Shown here one piece after another: positions 1,326 to 41,673 of a stretch of DNA of 64,000 bases. Below the pieces are notes generated by a model, which saw only the letters and a program-made list of their open reading frames with translations, did no database searches and had not been told where the DNA came from. Source of the DNA: Halobaculum halobium (GTDB lineage: Archaea > Halobacteriota > Halobacteria > Halobacteriales > Haloferacaceae). Position numbers and translations under genes: made by a program. Every line of letters starts with the position of its first letter. Position 1 is the stretch's first letter. The stretch covers positions 2,294,001 to 2,358,000 of the forward strand of contig NZ_CP126158.1 in assembly GCF_030127145.1 (NCBI RefSeq), read 5' to 3'.

Positions 1326-2821
1326 CTACAGCGCCCGCTCCAGCGCCGTCGCCACGCTCCGCGCCTTCTCCGCCAACTCCTCGGTGAGTTCGCCGCGCTC
1401 GACCGCCTCGTCGAGTTCGTCGTCGTCGACGCGCTCGACGCGGCCGTCGCCGTGTTTCACCACGTCGACGTGGAGGTCGACGTACCGCACCGCGTCGGGG
1501 AACGCCTCGACGGGCGTGCAGACGTTCACGTAGGTCCCCTTCCGGTCGCCGTCCTCGTCTCGGTAGACGGTCGGGTACCACCAGCGCCCCTCGCGGAACG
1601 TCGTCGTCGCCACGTCGCCCGCCTCCCGGCGCGCCTCGAGCGCGTCGTAGCTGCCGCCGGCGGTCATCCGGCGCTCGAGCGTGAGCGAGCCGTCGGAGGG
1701 GTCGAGATCGGTCACCTCGCCGCGCCCGAGGACGATGAGCCGGCCGTCGGGTTTCCCGTGGCCGATGGCGACGCGGTCGCCCACGTGCGGGCCGAACTGG
1801 TCGGCGACGACGCCGAACGGGAAGTCGGTGTCGTCGTCGGGGTCGTGCGCGAATTTGCCCGACGCGACGAGCGCCTCCGCGAGGTCGACGCCGGCGGAGG
1901 CCGACCGAGAGGCGGCTTTCGTGCGGTGGTGGCCGGGCATCGTCGTCGTCACCTCGCGGCGCAGGTCGTCGAGCGCGAAGCGGCACTCGCGGCCGAACCA
2001 CACCCACGCGCCGGCCGTCGGCGCGGCCAGCAGCCCGGGTTCGCCCTGCGGATCCTCCAGCGCGCCGTCGAGCGTCCGTGCGTGGTCACTCGCCCGCGTC
2101 AGCGCGTCGCCGAGGGTGTCCATGTCCGCGTCGCGGGCGTCGCGACTCCACTCGATCCCCCAGCCGTCGGGCACGTCGACCGAGAGGAGATCGGTCATGC
2201 CGGCCAGTTCGCGGGCGTCGGCGTCGTCTGCGCCGTCGACGCGGACGCCCTCGCGGCCGGGGACGAGCGTCGCGAGCCCCGCCATCGCGCGGATCCGCGT
2301 GTCGAGGACGGCGCGGTCGTCCTCCCACGGGGCCGCCGGGTCGAGCACCTGCACGCGGAGGACGTCGTCCTCGCCGACGTAGCCGTCGGCGTTGTCGAAC
2401 GGGAGGTATCCCTCTGCCCCGGACCCGCCGAGGTGAATGACGGCGCCGCCGCCGAGCGTCTCGTCGACGACGCCGTCGAACACCGCGCCCAGCGGCGCGG
2501 GGTCGTCCCACGCGAGCGCGTCGAGCCCCGCGTCGAGCAGGTGATCCCGGAGCGCGTCGACGGCGGCGGGCTCGCCGGCGACGCCGACGCCCTGGCGGTC
2601 GTCGGTCGTCTCGACGCTCGCGTCGTGGTCGGCGGCGGGGAGGTCGGCGTCGAAGCGCCGGCGGATCGGGGGCTCGCCTGCACCACGTCGTGGCCGGCGG
2701 AAAGCAGCGACTGCGTGAGCGCCGTCGCGTAGATGCCCCGAACGCGCACGCGGTGACTCCCGGCGTCGTCTCGGTCGTCGCCGCCGTCGCTCTCGTCGCC
2801 GGCACCGTTGCCGCCGGTCAT
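1326..2821 (-). pseudogene. FAU-1/DUF402 (RNase E/G-like) RNA-binding protein, one-base frameshift
   Basis: Two overlapping frames together encode one full-length FAU-1 (AU-1) family protein, an archaeal RNase E/G-related RNA-binding protein that recognises AU-rich RNA and has been linked to 5S rRNA maturation. The N-terminal part starts with ATG at 2821 and reads RVRGIYATALTQ...GHDVVQAS. Homology then continues in another frame (PIRRRFDADL, DRQGVGVAGEP, DDPAPLGAVFDG) to the stop at 1326. The C-terminal half contains the DUF402-like RNase/phosphatase fold. The frame breaks at a run of five G (2668-2672); six G restores one uninterrupted ORF. The start overlaps the stop of the upstream small gene by ATGA, so the two are cotranscribed. 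Probably an intact gene in the organism. Confidence 0.8.
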
Positions 2822-4937: not shown

Positions 4938-5705
4938 GTGACCTTCAGCATCTGCGTCCGCGAGGAGTACACCGACGAGCAGGGCGAGCGCCAGACGCGG
5001 TTTGGCGTCGCCGTCACGACCCGACTCCCCGGCGTCGGAACGCTGTGTCCGTTCGCCTCCGAGAACGGCGCGGTCGCCACTCAGTCGCTCGTGAACGTGG
5101 AACTGGGGCGCAGGGGCATCGAGTACATCGACGACGGACTCGCCGTCGACGACGCGCTTCAGTCGCTGCTCAACGCCGACGACGGCGCCCCGCAGCGCCA
5201 GCTTCACGGCGTCGACGCCGACGGCACGTTCACCTTCTCGGGCGAGGAGTGCAACGGCTGGTACGGCCACACCAACGGCGAGAACTACACTGTCGCCGGC
5301 AACCTCCTCGCGGGCGAGGCGGTGGTCGAGGCGGTCGCCAGCGCCTACGAGTCGGACGCCTTCGGCGACGCCCCGCTCGCCGAGCGGCTGATCGACGCCC
5401 TTGACGCGGGTCACGCCGAGGGCGGCGACAAGCGCGAGCACCTCCCCGTCCAGTCGGCGGCGCTGCTCGTGGAGACGACCGAAGACCGCGAGGTCGGCAC
5501 CTACTACGACGACCTCCGGGTCGACGCGACGGAGACGCCGATCGCCGACCTTCGCGAGACGTTCGAGGAGGCGCGACGCGGACAGGAGATCCTCATGGAG
5601 GAGTACAGCGACGAGTTGGAGAACGACGACCTCGACGCGGGCGAGGACGACGCGCCTGCGAACGCGGCGGACAACGACGCGACCGACGAGGACGACGCGG
5701 CGTAG
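4938..5705 (+). CDS. DUF1028 family protein (Ntn-hydrolase fold)
   Basis: A 255-residue protein whose N-terminus, MTFSICVREE, is the DUF1028 signature; the family adopts an N-terminal-nucleophile hydrolase fold, and the Thr directly after the initiator would be the candidate nucleophile if Met is removed. Motifs continue with GVAVTTRLPGVGTLCPFASENGAVATQS and NLLAGEAVVEAVASAYE. The GTG at 4938 fits a TTTTTG box about 25 bp upstream and places the Thr at position 2; the longer upstream frame is not family-like. The last 40 residues are an Asp/Ala-rich tail. Substrate unknown. Confidence 0.82.
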   Translation: MTFSICVREEYTDEQGERQTRFGVAVTTRLPGVGTLCPFASENGAVATQSLVNVELGRRGIEYIDDGLAVDDALQSLLNADDGAPQRQLHGVDADGTFTFSGEECNGWYGHTNGENYTVAGNLLAGEAVVEAVASAYESDAFGDAPLAERLIDALDAGHAEGGDKREHLPVQSAALLVETTEDREVGTYYDDLRVDATETPIADLRETFEEARRGQEILMEEYSDELENDDLDAGEDDAPANAADNDATDEDDAA

Positions 5706-37126: not shown

Positions 37127-37765
37127 TCACTCCTCGAACAGTTCCCGGTACAGAGTCGCCTCCGCGCGCCGGAGTCGCTCGAGGAACGCGCTCTTCGAGA
37201 GGTCGAGTTCGTCGGCGACCGCCGCCGAGGTCGCCGCTCTCGGAACCGCGAAGTAGCCGGCCTCGACCGCCGCACGGAGCGCCTCGATCTGCGGCGGCGT
37301 GAGCCCGAACCTGCCGGCGACGGGATCCGCCTCCTCGCGCAGCGGGTACGTACGCGTTAGCCGTACACCGACGGTCTCGCCGGCCGTCGCCATTACGCCC
37401 TGGAGCACGTCGTGGCCGACGACGGCGCCGGTCACGGTCGCGTCGCCGTCGCGGTAGGCGACGTCCTCGACGAGGAGCCCTGCGGAGACCAGTTCGTGAA
37501 CGACGCACGGGTGTTTCGAGAGACAGCGATAGGTGTCGCGCTCCCCCGCTCGCGAGCGGTGGAGATACCGGACCCGGTCGTCACCGTCGAGGTGGGCCGC
37601 GAGGTCGTCGTCCCGGGGCGCGCCGAAGCGCAGCAGGACGTTCCCGTCCCGGCGGAGCTGCGGCGGCTTCGCTCGCACCGGCGTCCGCGTCGCCGCCGTC
37701 GCCTCCGCGAGCGGACAGTCGTCGCCGCTCACGCGTACCTCCACGACGAGACACTCGGCGATCAT
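37127..37765 (-). CDS. Bacterio-opsin-activator-type HTH_10 transcription regulator
   Basis: A 212-residue haloarchaeal regulator. The N-terminal domain of about 150 residues is the BAT/GAF-like ligand or sensor part; the C-terminal HTH_10 is FGLTPPQIEALRAAVEAGYF...ATSAAVADELDLSKSAFLERLRRAEATL (cut here for length), with the classic recognition helix SKSAFLERLRRAE. It reads away from paaA across a 112-bp region containing a perfect inverted repeat, so it is the natural candidate regulator of the phenylacetate genes (inference from position). Confidence 0.82.
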   Translation of the reverse strand: MIAECLVVEVRVSGDDCPLAEATAATRTPVRAKPPQLRRDGNVLLRFGAPRDDDLAAHLDGDDRVRYLHRSRAGERDTYRCLSKHPCVVHELVSAGLLVEDVAYRDGDATVTGAVVGHDVLQGVMATAGETVGVRLTRTYPLREEADPVAGRFGLTPPQIEALRAAVEAGYFAVPRAATSAAVADELDLSKSAFLERLRRAEATLYRELFEE

Positions 37766-37812
37766 CGTCGCACCTCGGCGTCCCGGGTCACCGTGTGAGT
37801 ACGTATCGCGAT

Positions 37813-37835
37813 CACATATAAAACACGCATATGTG
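37813..37835. promoter_or_regulatory. Palindromic candidate operator and promoter of paaA
   Basis: CACATAT (37813-37819) and ATATGTG (37829-37835) form a perfect 7-bp inverted repeat with a 9-nt spacer. The left half overlaps ATATAAAA, a consensus-like TATA box about 55-60 bp upstream of the paaA ATG; the same sequence read leftwards (TTTTATATG) can serve the HTH_10 gene, whose start is about 50 bp away. A dimeric regulator bound here would control both promoters. Confidence 0.55.
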
Positions 37836-37877
37836 CGGGTGAACCGGTAAGCCGTCTAACGAGAAGGATCGATCATC

Positions 37878-38816
37878 ATGGATATCGAGACGGTGAAAGA
37901 ACAGGCGGGCCCCCGGCAGTTCGGCCCGAACGACGACATGCCCGAGGAGTACCGTCGGGCGGCGACCCGGATGATCCAGTTTCACGCGAACAGCGAGGTC
38001 ATGGGCGGCTACCTCGACAAGGAGTTCACTCGCCACGCGCCGTCGCTCGACCGGAAGCTGGCGAACACCGCAAAGGTGCAAGACGAGATCGGGCACGCGC
38101 AACTGCTGTACCGCGCCGCCGAGACGCTCGGCGTGAAGACGCGCGACGAGATGCTCGACGAGTTGCAGAACGGCGAGGGGAAGTTCCTCAACTGCTTCCA
38201 CTACCCCGTCGACTCGTGGTACGAGGCGCCGATGATCGACTTCTTCGTCGACGGCGGCGCGATGCGCCGGCAGGCGACGCTCAAGTCGACGAGTTGGACG
38301 CCGTACGCCCACGCGATGGACAAGGTGTGCTTCGAGGAGGGGTTCCACGTGAAACACGGCGAGTCGATCCTCCGGGAGCTGATGCGCGGATCGAAAGCGA
38401 CCCAAGAGCGCACCCAGGAGACCTTCGAGGAGTGGTGGCCCCGCATCCTCCAGTTCTTCGGGCCGACGAACGACGAGTCCACGCACAACGACTTCGCCCA
38501 AGAGGTCGGCCTGAAGACGACCTCGAACGACGAACTCCGCAACTCGTTCCTCAACATGTACGTCCCCAAGGCGGAGAAGTACGGGCTGGAGATCCCGGAG
38601 TACCCCCGCATCTTCGAGCGCGACGACGGGACGATGGCCGTCCGGGAGTCCGACCTCGACTGGGACGAGTTCTGGACGATCGCGAAGAACGACTCCGAGG
38701 GGAGCCGCGAGCAGATCGGCTCGCGCGCTCGCCGACAGGAGGCTGTCGCCTGGGTTCGCGAGAGCCTCGACTCGTGGGAAGGAACCGCCGCGGGAACGCC
38801 GCAGGCGGCCGACTGA
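37878..38816 (+). CDS. paaA: 1,2-phenylacetyl-CoA epoxidase, catalytic subunit PaaA
   Basis: A 312-residue diiron ferritin-like oxygenase subunit converting phenylacetyl-CoA to ring-1,2-epoxyphenylacetyl-CoA. Metal-ligand motifs are DEIGHAQLLYRAAETL at about residues 69-84 and EEGFHVKHGESILRELM at about 153-169; the length matches bacterial PaaA (about 310). An AAGGAT Shine-Dalgarno-like element is 10-14 bp upstream of the ATG. First gene of paaABCD plus zinc ribbon; 2 bp separate it from paaB. Confidence 0.92.
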   Translation: MDIETVKEQAGPRQFGPNDDMPEEYRRAATRMIQFHANSEVMGGYLDKEFTRHAPSLDRKLANTAKVQDEIGHAQLLYRAAETLGVKTRDEMLDELQNGEGKFLNCFHYPVDSWYEAPMIDFFVDGGAMRRQATLKSTSWTPYAHAMDKVCFEEGFHVKHGESILRELMRGSKATQERTQETFEEWWPRILQFFGPTNDESTHNDFAQEVGLKTTSNDELRNSFLNMYVPKAEKYGLEIPEYPRIFERDDGTMAVRESDLDWDEFWTIAKNDSEGSREQIGSRARRQEAVAWVRESLDSWEGTAAGTPQAAD

Positions 38817-38818
38817 CT

Positions 38819-39160
38819 ATGATCTGGGAAGTGTTCAGACAGGAGAAGCCGGGCGACTACCACCGCCACGTCGGCAACGTCCACGCACCCGACCGCGAGA
38901 TGGCGAAGCTGTTCGCGCAGATCCAGCACGCCCGCCGGATGCAGACCAACTCGCTGTGGGTGGTGCCGCAGCCCGAGATCGGCGAGGTCGACGCCGAGGA
39001 CGCCGCCTTCGGCGGCCGCACGGACAAGTCGTACCGCTGGGCGATGACGTACAACGACATCGACTCGTCGTTCGCCCAGGAGGTCGAGGACAGCGAGGCC
39101 GAACAGCGCGAGGCGGCGAGAACGCGCCGCGAGCAGCTCGAATCGGAGGGCGAGCGATGA
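38819..39160 (+). CDS. paaB: 1,2-phenylacetyl-CoA epoxidase subunit PaaB
   Basis: A 113-residue PaaB homologue: WEVFRQEKPGDYHRHVGNVHAPDREMAKLF at the start, ARRMQTNSLWVVPQ in the middle and FGGRTDKSYRWAMTYN later (TDKSYRW is characteristic). PaaB bridges PaaAC heterodimers into the active complex. The start is ATG at 38819; it overlaps paaC by 4 bp (ATGA). A Glu/Arg-rich tail of about 20 residues is typical for haloarchaea. Confidence 0.9.
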   Translation: MIWEVFRQEKPGDYHRHVGNVHAPDREMAKLFAQIQHARRMQTNSLWVVPQPEIGEVDAEDAAFGGRTDKSYRWAMTYNDIDSSFAQEVEDSEAEQREAARTRREQLESEGER

Positions 39161-40056
39161 CCGAGCGCGACGCGATCTCGGGCGATGCACAGCGGGTCGC
39201 AGACGACGACGCCGCAGCGGAGTCCGAACCGCCCGCCGCGGCGTCGCTCGACCGCGGTTCTCTCACCCCCGAGCAGCAGCTCGCGCTGGAGGAACTCCTG
39301 TTCCGACTGGCAGACGACGAGTTCGTCCACGCCGAACGTCTCACCGAGTGGCAGATATACGCGCCGACTATCGAATCGGACCTCGCGCTCGCCAACGTCG
39401 CCCAAGACGAGTTCGGCCACGCCCGCCTGTGGTACGACCTCCTGCAGGAACTCGGATACACCGAGGAGGAGTGCATCTGGCGGCGCGACGCCGGCGACTG
39501 GACGCACGCGACGATCGTCGAGCGCCCGTTCGCCGACGACGGCTGGGGCGACGCCGTCGTCCGAACCTACCTGTACGACGCGGCCGAGCGCGTCCGCCTC
39601 GAAGCGCTGACCGACACCAGCTACGCCCCCCTTGCGGACCGCGTGGGCAAGGTGCTCGCCGAGGAGGAGTATCACCGCGACCACGCGGTGAGCTGGCTCG
39701 AACGCCTGGCGAGCGACGACGACGCCCGCGAGCGCCTCCAGGCCGCCGTCGACGACCTGTTCCCCCACGCGCTGTCGCTGTTCCATCCGGGCGAGCGCGA
39801 GGACGCGATCCGGGCAGCCGGCTTCCGTCGCGAGTCGCTGACGGCGATGCGCGAGGAGTGGCTCGACACCGTCATTCCGACTCTGGAGGGGTACGGGCTC
39901 GTCGTGCCTGAACCCGGTGAGGTCACTCGTCCGGACGCCCGCGGCCGCGACGGGACTCACACCGACGCGTGGTTCGACCTGCAGGAGGCGTTCACCGCGA
40001 CCCACCGCGAGGTCGACTTCGAGACGCCCGCACGCCTGCGCGGGGAGGAGGCGTAG
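39157..40056 (+). CDS. paaC: 1,2-phenylacetyl-CoA epoxidase, structural subunit PaaC
   Basis: A 299-residue PaaC with an acidic N-terminal extension of about 40 residues absent from bacterial PaaC (about 250). Ferritin-like motifs remain: ADDEFVHAERLTEWQ, NVAQDEFGHARLWYDLLQELG and EEEYHRDHAVSWLERL. It partners PaaA in the catalytic core. Overlaps paaB by 4 bp; its stop is directly followed by the paaD ATG at 40057. Confidence 0.9.
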   Translation: MTERDAISGDAQRVADDDAAAESEPPAAASLDRGSLTPEQQLALEELLFRLADDEFVHAERLTEWQIYAPTIESDLALANVAQDEFGHARLWYDLLQELGYTEEECIWRRDAGDWTHATIVERPFADDGWGDAVVRTYLYDAAERVRLEALTDTSYAPLADRVGKVLAEEEYHRDHAVSWLERLASDDDARERLQAAVDDLFPHALSLFHPGEREDAIRAAGFRRESLTAMREEWLDTVIPTLEGYGLVVPEPGEVTRPDARGRDGTHTDAWFDLQEAFTATHREVDFETPARLRGEEA

Positions 40057-40518
40057 ATGCCGACGAACATGCCGACCGACACGCCGGGCGACGCGGGGAC
40101 CGGCGCACCCGACGGCGCGGCCACCGACGCCGAGGCGTGCGCCTACACCGCCTACGAGGACGGCGAGGCGCCCGAGGAGTACCCGAAGACGGGCGCGGGC
40201 GCCACGGGCGTCGAGGCCGACGTGTGGGACGCGCTGTTCGAGGTCGACGATCCGGAGATGCCCGTCAGCGTCGTGGATCTCGGCCTGATATACGACGTGT
40301 CCGTCGACGGGGACGGACGTTGCGAGGTGGAGATGACACTCACGTACACCGGCTGTCCCGCCCGCGACATGATCACGAACGACGTGCGCTGCGCCGCAGC
40401 GACCGCGCCGGGCGTCGAGGCGGCGGAGGTGCGCCTGCGGTACTCGCCCGAGTGGACCGTCGCGATGGTGACCGACGCGGGGCGCGAGGCCCTGCGCGAA
40501 TTCGGGTTGAGCGTGTGA
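40057..40518 (+). CDS. paaD: PaaD-like DUF59/MIP18 iron-sulfur assembly protein (core domain only)
   Basis: A 153-residue protein. After an acidic linker of about 55 residues comes the DUF59/MIP18 domain: VWDALFEVDDPEMPVSVVDLGLIYDV and MTLTYTGCPARDMITNDVRCA, containing the conserved Cys of TGCPARD. In bacteria PaaD has this domain fused to a C-terminal zinc ribbon; here the ribbon is a separate gene whose ATG shares the TGATG junction with this stop codon. PaaD is thought to help assemble or load the iron centre of the epoxidase system. Confidence 0.88.
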   Translation: MPTNMPTDTPGDAGTGAPDGAATDAEACAYTAYEDGEAPEEYPKTGAGATGVEADVWDALFEVDDPEMPVSVVDLGLIYDVSVDGDGRCEVEMTLTYTGCPARDMITNDVRCAAATAPGVEAAEVRLRYSPEWTVAMVTDAGREALREFGLSV

Positions 40519-40706
40519 TGCGCCGGAATGCGCCGGATCCGAGCGTCGCCGCCGGGGTCGCCGGAAGGGACGCGGACGACGACCCCGCGGAGTGTCCGTA
40601 CTGCGGATCGACCGACACCGAGCGCGAGCACCCAAAGGGGCCGGGGTTGTGCCGGTCGATGCATTTCTGCAACGCCTGCGGGGAGCCGTTCGAGCGGTTC
40701 GGCTAG
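40518..40706 (+). CDS. Stand-alone PaaD-type zinc ribbon (62 aa)
   Basis: A 62-residue protein with a four-Cys zinc ribbon, ECPYCGSTDTERE...GLCRSMHFCNACGEPFERF. This matches the C-terminal zinc ribbon of bacterial PaaD (CPxCGSxDTE ... CxxxxxCxxCxEPF). The ATG at 40518 overlaps the paaD stop (TGATG), so both are made from one message and probably reconstitute a bipartite PaaD. This interpretation is sequence-based and I regard it as well supported by motif match and context. Confidence 0.85.
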   Translation: MRRNAPDPSVAAGVAGRDADDDPAECPYCGSTDTEREHPKGPGLCRSMHFCNACGEPFERFG

Positions 40707-41082: not shown

Positions 41083-41673
41083 TCAGAACTGCCGCTCGAA
41101 CTCCGTGATGTCCGAGACGGTGTAGTACGGCCCGCCCAGGCGACCCACCGTCGGGAGCTTCCGCTGGTCGATCTGGCCGTCGGTGAGCGTGTCGTCGTCG
41201 ACGTGGACGTACTCCACCTCCCCGAGGACCATCAGCCGGTCGTGGACCTCCATCGAGTCGTACAGCGTGCACTCCATGGTGACGGCCGCCTCCGCGACGC
41301 GCGGGACGTCGATGCGGCAACAGTCGGCGCGCGTCACGCCGACCTCGTCGAACTCGCTTTCCTCCGGCGGCAGCGACTCGGCGCTGTGGTCCATCCGCTC
41401 CAGCAGGGGTTCGGTGACGACGTTCACCGCGAACTCGCCGATGTCGAGCGCGTTTCGCGGGGTGTCTTTGAGCCCGCCGTTGGCGTCGTTCGGAGAGTTG
41501 AACAGCACCACTGGTTCCCGAGAGGAGACGTAGTTGTACGAGCTAAACGGTGCGAGGTTGTCGACGCCGTCCCCGTCGACGGTGCTGATCCACGCGATCG
41601 GACGCGGCGAGACGGCGGTCTTGATTATCCGTGCGATCTCCCGGGGCGTCCGGTCGGAGACGGCTGTTTCCAT
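41083..41673 (-). CDS. Flavin reductase-like (FMN-binding split-barrel) protein
   Basis: A 196-residue flavin_reductase/DIM6-NTAB family protein: SPRPIAWISTVDGDGVDNLAPFSSYNYVSS at about residues 22-51 is the FMN-binding start, then GEFAVNVVTEPLLERMDHSA and the C-terminal DGQIDQRKLPTVGRLGGPYY. Members bind FMN and reduce flavin with NAD(P)H or act as flavin-dependent enzymes. Convergent with the paa block and followed upstream by maoC on the same strand. It could supply electrons to an oxygenase, but nothing in the sequence proves a link with PaaABC. Confidence 0.8.
   Translation of the reverse strand: METAVSDRTPREIARIIKTAVSPRPIAWISTVDGDGVDNLAPFSSYNYVSSREPVVLFNSPNDANGGLKDTPRNALDIGEFAVNVVTEPLLERMDHSAESLPPEESEFDEVGVTRADCCRIDVPRVAEAAVTMECTLYDSMEVHDRLMVLGEVEYVHVDDDTLTDGQIDQRKLPTVGRLGGPYYTVSDITEFERQF

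Follow-up and report, generated by a model that had tools for sequence, protein, structure and literature searches.

In the 64,000-nucleotide stretch of the Halobaculum halobium genome analysed here (the window), an HTH_10 regulator gene and paaA are separated by an intergenic gap of 112 bp that forms a divergent promoter region (Table 1). The names of the genes that follow paaA were assigned from the resemblance of their open reading frames and from the annotated gene order of Haloferax. These paaB-E-type genes probably constitute an operon controlled from the paaA promoter. Convergent with the paa genes lies a flavin-reductase-like gene (41083–41673, minus strand), followed by a MaoC-like gene, both named by resemblance only. 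Within Halobaculum, the intergenic gap measures 84 bp in L001, 105 bp in L003, 112 bp in the window and 138 bp in L002. The variable part is the stretch between the TATA box and the regulator start (37766–37814 in the window), which suggests small insertions or alternative start codons.

Table 1. Genes and sequence elements at the paaA locus, in window coordinates.
Feature	Position	Strand	Remarks
HTH_10 regulator gene	37127..37765	-	212 aa; divergent from paaA; Pfam HTH_10 8.1e-17
Perfect palindrome CACATATAAAACACGCATATGTG	37813-37835	+	7-bp inverted repeat, 9-bp spacer; not conserved
Conserved TATA element, columns 1-8	37815..37822	+	mean information 1.40 bits/column
Conserved operator-like block, columns 9-37, 29 bases	37823..37851	+	0.97 bits/column
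Main imperfect dyad	37824..37839	+	centre 37831/37832 (columns 17/18); consensus like CCCGTCTATAGACGGG; window pairs 6/8
Second, weaker overlapping dyad	37834..37849	+	centre 37841/37842, 10 bp downstream of main
paaA, phenylacetyl-CoA epoxidase subunit	37878..38816	+	Pfam PaaA_PaaC 7.8e-69; TIGR02156 278.3 bits, cut-off 280 (just missed)
paaB, paaC, paaD, short PaaE-annotated-type gene	38813..40706 (approximate)	+	3' of paaA

A sequence-only reading of this DNA had singled out the perfect palindrome CACATAT-N9-ATATGTG, as an arrangement that would suit autoregulation and control of the phenylacetate genes by the adjacent regulator. The palindrome is indeed exact and lies inside the intergenic gap, where it overlaps ATATAAAA. 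Its specific pattern has a single match in the window, even when up to three mismatches are allowed. Exact inverted repeats of the same 7-N9-7 geometry but of any sequence occur 23 times in the 64 kb, 7-bp inverted repeats with spacers of 0–20 occur 428 times, and at least one of the latter arose in 481 of 5000 mononucleotide shuffles of the intergenic gap. Since 7-bp inverted repeats are this frequent both in the window and in the shuffled gap, an unspecified palindrome is weak evidence for function. The conservation across haloarchaeal paa promoters that the proposal called for did not materialise. Among the 100-bp regions upstream of 81 paaA genes, the window matches the palindrome without mismatch and L040 with two, whereas the other 79 differ at four positions or more. 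The left arm is absent even from the congeneric loci L001–L003, whose regulators are 86.7–88.6% identical. This absence of conservation led us to discard the palindrome as the operator. That it nevertheless acts as a functional operator in H. halobium itself, as its perfect repeat and its overlap with the TATA box might suggest, seems extremely unlikely given the missing arm in congeners and the recurrence of the same geometry in the window. Under the explanation that we favour, the palindrome arose by chance, as a prolongation of part of a conserved site into the TATA box.

This conserved site was revealed by aligning the 100 bp upstream of paaA from the window and from 80 haloarchaeal loci (the best 80 of 88). 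All 81 regions share an ungapped block of 40 columns (alignment A1; 79 distinct sites from 81) with the consensus TATATAAA-n-CCCGTCTATgGaCGGGTnAATCGGTAAG, in which column 1 corresponds to window position 37815. The block comprises the TATA element and, directly adjoining it, the operator-like block of Table 1. Outside it, information amounts to 0.15 bits/column in the preceding 40 bases and 0.25 bits/column in the following 25. The strongest columns are those of the TATA box, a central AT, an AA and a GTAAG. The spacing between TATA and block is fixed, and the distance from the end of the block to the paaA start codon varies between 20 and 32 nt. When both strands of each locus were scored with a matrix of columns 9–37, trained without the genus of that locus (a MAG lacking a genus name being taken as a genus by itself), the site came out first in 81 of 81 loci; the site positions were fixed by an alignment that contains every locus. 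The main dyad alone (columns 10–25) ranks first in 48 of the 81 loci and never below fourth. As judged from these alignments, a putative operator-like switch that overlaps the palindrome at the paaA core promoter is conserved in the haloarchaea examined.

The block contains two overlapping imperfect dyads. For the main dyad, the Watson-Crick fraction over 8 positions in the 79 distinct sites is 0.636, compared with a column-shuffled mean of 0.588; the next best symmetry centres reach 0.454 and 0.453. The symmetry is thus imperfect and only modestly above the column shuffles, which we count against interpreting the block as an operator. When G-U pairs are included, 71.7% of the main dyad is paired (shuffled 68.0, with 1 of 500 shuffles as high), falling to 31.8–44.0% when the arms are slid by 1–3 columns. 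The corresponding values for the second dyad are 63.1% (shuffled 59.2, 0 of 500 as high) and 25.0–48.8%. The number of paired cells and the covariation score both lie above nearly all shuffles; the slid controls favour the named dyads, these structures having been read from the consensus. Further pair types in the main dyad show no excess (378 of 500 shuffles as high), and neither do the four pairs of the second dyad that changed on both sides (490 of 500).

Columns 13, 22 and 33 tend to switch jointly, reading G-C-G in 39 of the 81 sites, C-G-C in 18 and a mixture in 24. Such joint switching would be consistent with a single protein recognising three half-sites. On a tree of 76 regulators, the three columns changed 7, 4 and 6 times, respectively, and the switch falls mostly within one large clade (column 22: 4 changes). 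An independent-pairs test on this tree gave no support for coordinated change of the three columns. We therefore did not retain coordinated change of the dyad arms as strong evidence, weakened as it is by the one-clade bias and this null result. For regulator residues that vary with the operator type, the same clade is a confounder. The regulator segment SKSAFLERL, which is presumably the recognition helix, is nearly invariant.

To what extent regulator, paaA and site travel together was assessed in 145 sampled genomes of the class, with thresholds of E≤1e-25 for the regulator and E≤1e-60 for PaaA. The genomes overlap the loci described above; for example, G111, G065 and G095 hold the records of L005, L007 and L075. 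The regulator is present in 68 of the 145 genomes (in G020 the match spans residues 76–210 only) and PaaA in 69, namely the same 68 and G123. The PaaA of G123 is a distant, 42% identical protein, in a genome that has neither the regulator nor the site. For 67 of the 69 PaaA genes, the site model R1, applied under stricter filters to the best 45 first-look candidates per genome (own-genome scans used the best 150), places a site in the 110 bp ahead of the gene. The site at paaA of G120 is weak, with 12.2 bits and an E-value of 0.008 with filters off. Three genomes lacking paaA have R1 matches with E-values of 0.02–0.04, which is in the chance range. Co-occurrence of this kind is a sign of shared fate, not of contact.

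The regulator lies upstream of and divergent from paaA in 75 of the 80 loci, with gaps of 60–816 bp, and is not divergently adjacent in six of the 68 genomes. In three of these (G062, G082 and G144) it is encoded on the same strand, about 3 kb from paaA; in the other three (G072, G095 and G120) it is found about 250 kb from paaA or on another contig, with the site at paaA. Searching stretches from G072, G082, G095 and G120 (L116–L122) gave no match at E≤1 at the regulator and the site at paaA. In G062 and G144, which were covered by the coarser class scan only, there is one match each, at paaA, and none at the regulator. Beside the regulator in L122, a TATA box is accompanied by an apparent degenerate trace of the site that scores below threshold. 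Likewise, R1 has no match at E≤1 other than that at paaA in the seven loci whose regulator start is 246–749 nt away from the site. Because the site is found at paaA even when the regulator is unlinked or far away, the putative element is kept for paaA and not for the regulator. Autoregulation through this site, a second part of the earlier proposal, is accordingly not a conserved feature, no site being found at the distant or unlinked regulators of the seven loci and six genomes. At most, autoregulation via the element would be a by-product of a shared promoter.

The site is also retained at five paaA copies whose fetched loci contain no regulator (L058, L069, L073, L075 and L076). These copies might indicate that a different conserved factor binds the operator, with the HTH_10 gene as a mere neighbour. 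All of them except L076, however, come from genomes with a regulator elsewhere, as expected for control in trans: L058/L064, L069/L059 and L073/L041 each belong to the same organism, and the coordinates of L075 are those of the paaA contig of G095. Moreover, the 68 genomes, out of 145, that have the regulator are also those with orthologous paaA, three times without linkage. We consider another factor improbable.

The reach of the site beyond paaA appears narrow. In the H. halobium genome, with 150 of 253 first-look candidates scored, R1 gives a single match at E≤10, which falls at paaA, and the next match in the window after paaA scores 5.9 bits. Likewise, the sole strong match is at paaA in 40.6 kb of Haloferax alexandrinus BNX82 and in 32.6 kb of H. 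mediterranei, where the regulator gene is E6P09_RS16050, even though paaK is present in the searched Haloferax stretches, in another unit. Across the 145 genomes there are seven matches at E≤0.05 away from paaA (best 45 candidates scored per genome). The proposal that the regulator controls the phenylacetate genes thus stands in part: the association of the regulator with paaA, through co-occurrence in 68 of 145 genomes and an operator-like site, speaks for it, and "phenylacetate genes" is too wide a term for the target. A wider regulon was considered and set aside, since only scattered extra sites came to light (L125 and, less clearly, L123, L124 and L007), none of them in the own-genome search.

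The site-like element of L125 (1472–1499) is on another contig of G095, a genome in which paaA and regulator are unlinked. It lies about 40 nt before the ATG of a gene that, by resemblance, encodes a branched-chain-amino-acid-type ABC substrate-binding protein, and may represent a possible expansion of the regulon. In L123, a site-like element (2440–2471, minus strand) is found 272 nt upstream of an EthD-like gene, and in L124 another (5091–5123) 309 nt upstream of an alpha/beta-hydrolase-like gene. That of L007 (405–436, the same record as G065 C112:7734–7765) is on the far side of the regulator, with no obvious gene.

The scarcity of sites also bears on whether the block could be a specialised core promoter, consisting of a downstream element specific for a TFB or TBP variant together with an initiator, rather than the operator of any regulator. 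The block is contiguous with the TATA box, includes the expected start, and has its strongest columns in the TATA, central AT, AA and GTAAG positions, all of which would suit such an element. A basal element should recur, however, and neither the one site in the own genome (best 150 first-look candidates scored) nor the seven matches away from paaA in the class scan (best 45 per genome, stricter filters) amount to recurrence; the dyad symmetry would also be left unexplained. We regard a specialised core promoter as very improbable.

The position of the regulator start relative to the block raises a further aspect of the promoter. Measured from column 1 in 76 loci, the regulator starts at a distance of 20–35 nt in 59, 36–75 nt in nine, 246–749 nt in seven and –1 nt in one; in L014, the regulator start codon touches the block. 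With 20–35 nt available, there is hardly space for a leaderless regulator transcript to have a TATA box of its own at about –27. As the only box at the right distance for such a transcript is that of paaA, regulator and paaA probably share one TATA box, read on opposite strands, in most of the loci where they are adjacent. At 49 nt, the regulator start of the window is more distant from column 1 than in most loci, and a shared TATA box would require a short leader there. One-TATA divergence has been described in Pyrococcus furiosus, where a single TATA element can serve two divergent starts about 50 bp apart (PMC6640164). In the P. furiosus case, the bidirectional promoter is discussed as a source of antisense transcripts (PMC6640164), whereas here the opposite transcript would be that of the regulator gene, with a putative operator on one side.

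The regulator itself carries a C-terminal HTH_10 domain (PF04967; 61.2 bits against a cut-off of 23.1), which is matched at E≤0.01 by all 60 relatives scanned (alignment A2, 60 of the 76 regulators). DmsR_N and BAT score 23.4 and 20.1 bits in the window protein and miss their cut-offs of 27 and 25.8 bits, while 31 and 58 of the 60 relatives, respectively, match them at E≤0.01. Neither PAS nor GAF is among the Pfam matches of the window regulator, and no PaaX (GntR-type) or TetR-type domain was found in it or in the 60 relatives at E≤0.01. The protein thus falls outside the domain definitions of Bat, of the DmsR/NarO subgroup (DmsR_N) and of PaaX/PaaR. HTH_10-type matches occur at 15 places in the own genome. 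Cys5 and Cys81 are present in 76 of 76 regulators and Cys17 and Cys87 in 75 of 76. In a rough alignment, none of seven own-genome paralogues has the four-Cys set, and one cysteine of L085 aligns with Cys87. These near-invariant residues hint at a thiol or metal signal.

An AlphaFold2 model of the regulator, computed with the 60-row alignment (mean pLDDT 87.4, pTM 0.61), has an alpha/beta fold in its N-terminal part, followed by a helical C-terminus. Structurally, the N-terminal part is matched best by Ta1207 of Thermoplasma acidophilum (PDB 5m86; VIA Z 10.4 over 138 residues, rmsd 3.1, 9% identity), whose chain has 321 residues; the shared fold shows no function. Other matches reach Z values of at most 8.0 and include ferredoxin/ACT/NikR-like folds and, for the HTH, sigma region 4. 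We disregarded them, their Z values lying within the range of common arrangements. A search for solved relatives by sequence returned one match at chance level (E 0.62). The predicted fold would suit a sensor of a ligand, of metal or of redox state and is proof of none.

Conservation of the element, its fixed position, its approximate dyad symmetry, its co-occurrence with the regulator and its tracking of paaA are direct observations. Binding by the HTH_10 protein, repression, a signal, the start site and the shared TATA box are what we infer beyond them. We consider it likely that the operator-like block is the operator of the neighbouring HTH_10 protein, which would act as a dedicated haloarchaeal paa regulator and repress paaA until it receives a signal. 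Probably as a single dimer or as a cooperating pair of dimers, the protein would occupy half-sites spaced by about one helical turn, on the side of the TATA box that faces paaA. If transcription starts about 25 bp from the TATA box, the bound region would extend from approximately –22 to +6 of paaA. There, the bound regulator would be expected to hinder the recruitment of RNA polymerase and so repress paaA and the paaB-E genes. Release may be triggered by phenylacetyl-CoA, to which bacterial PaaX and PaaR respond, or by a thiol, metal or redox cue perceived through the four cysteines.

We prefer repression over activation because of the position of the site between the TATA box and the start. 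An operator downstream of the TATA box fits steric repression, and activator sites usually lie upstream of the BRE/TATA. The main rival uses the same site and the same regulator but has paaA activated, for instance by stabilising TFB or the polymerase downstream of the TATA box. Characterised HTH_10 proteins are mostly described as activators, among them the bacterioopsin activators, NarO and DmsR, and the strong conservation would fit either sign. On the other hand, in each of the 81 promoters the block is situated between the TATA box and the expected start, a position from which a bound protein should obstruct the polymerase, and for NarO, repression of the dms operon is described alongside activation of nar. 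Activation through this site seems unlikely to us, though it is the strongest competitor of the repressor model.

A more elaborate version of that model would combine the four cysteines with the shared promoter. Here, a cysteine-based HTH_10 repressor would set the direction of the single shared TATA box and thereby gate an oxygen-consuming pathway. Binding on the paaA side would shut paaA and leave TBP/TFB free to fire towards the regulator gene. Metal or redox damage at the four-Cys site, or phenylacetyl-CoA, would then flip the box towards paaA. We hold this arrangement to be unlikely.

Repression by the HTH_10 protein would have a parallel in bacteria, where the repressors PaaX (GntR-type) and PaaR (TetR-type) bind inverted repeats at paa promoters and respond to phenylacetyl-CoA, the first pathway intermediate (PMC9493321). 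Regulation of a paa promoter through inverted repeats would be the common element; the candidate haloarchaeal pair differs in its HTH_10 family, its operator and its archaeal TATA-type promoter. Within the HTH_10 proteins, NarO and DmsR are said to lack PAS and GAF, as found for the window regulator; this comparison is made by domains and published descriptions. NarO has a cysteine motif. In contrast to NarO and DmsR, the presumed target here is an oxygen-dependent catabolic operon, with the site downstream of the TATA box. A thiol-based regulator of the TrmB family in Haloferax volcanii provides a precedent for cysteine-based regulation in haloarchaea, although it belongs to another DNA-binding family and acts in the oxidative stress response (PMC9426492).

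Expression data from the literature touch on the proposed signal. In Haloferax alexandrinus DSM 27206, silver at 0.1 and/or 0.5 mM increased the transcripts of paaA, paaB, paaC, paaD, paaH, paaI, paaJ and paaK by about 5- to 16-fold, with no entry for these genes at 0.25 mM; the authors relate the induction to oxidative stress (PMC10694973). The effect might be explained if silver attacks the cysteines of the regulator; the published values do not single out the regulator. We did not adopt the silver response as proof. paaK and paaH rise too, although by the gene order of BNX82 they lie in other units; BNX82, a different strain, has its strong site only at paaA in the 40.6 kb searched; and no response of these genes is listed at 0.25 mM.

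A 2026 survey of phenylacetate pathways reports most Halobacteria to be without local transcriptional regulators; the regulators it names are PaaX and PaaR, with PaaX found in one haloarchaeon (PMC13186573). Among the papers listed in our literature searches, which lie largely outside subscription journals, no title or opening of an abstract described a haloarchaeal paa regulator or this site. A local regulator-operator pair for paa genes is of a known kind, and we did not find the HTH_10 family or this promoter layout described for paa. The HTH_10 gene would be a candidate local regulator that the survey did not count (PMC13186573). The candidate regulator-operator pair accompanies orthologous paaA in 68 of the 68 genomes that bear it among the 145 (one site being weak). 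It could serve as a model for DNA recognition by HTH_10 proteins, and the locus would offer a testable case of one TATA box serving both a regulator and its target.
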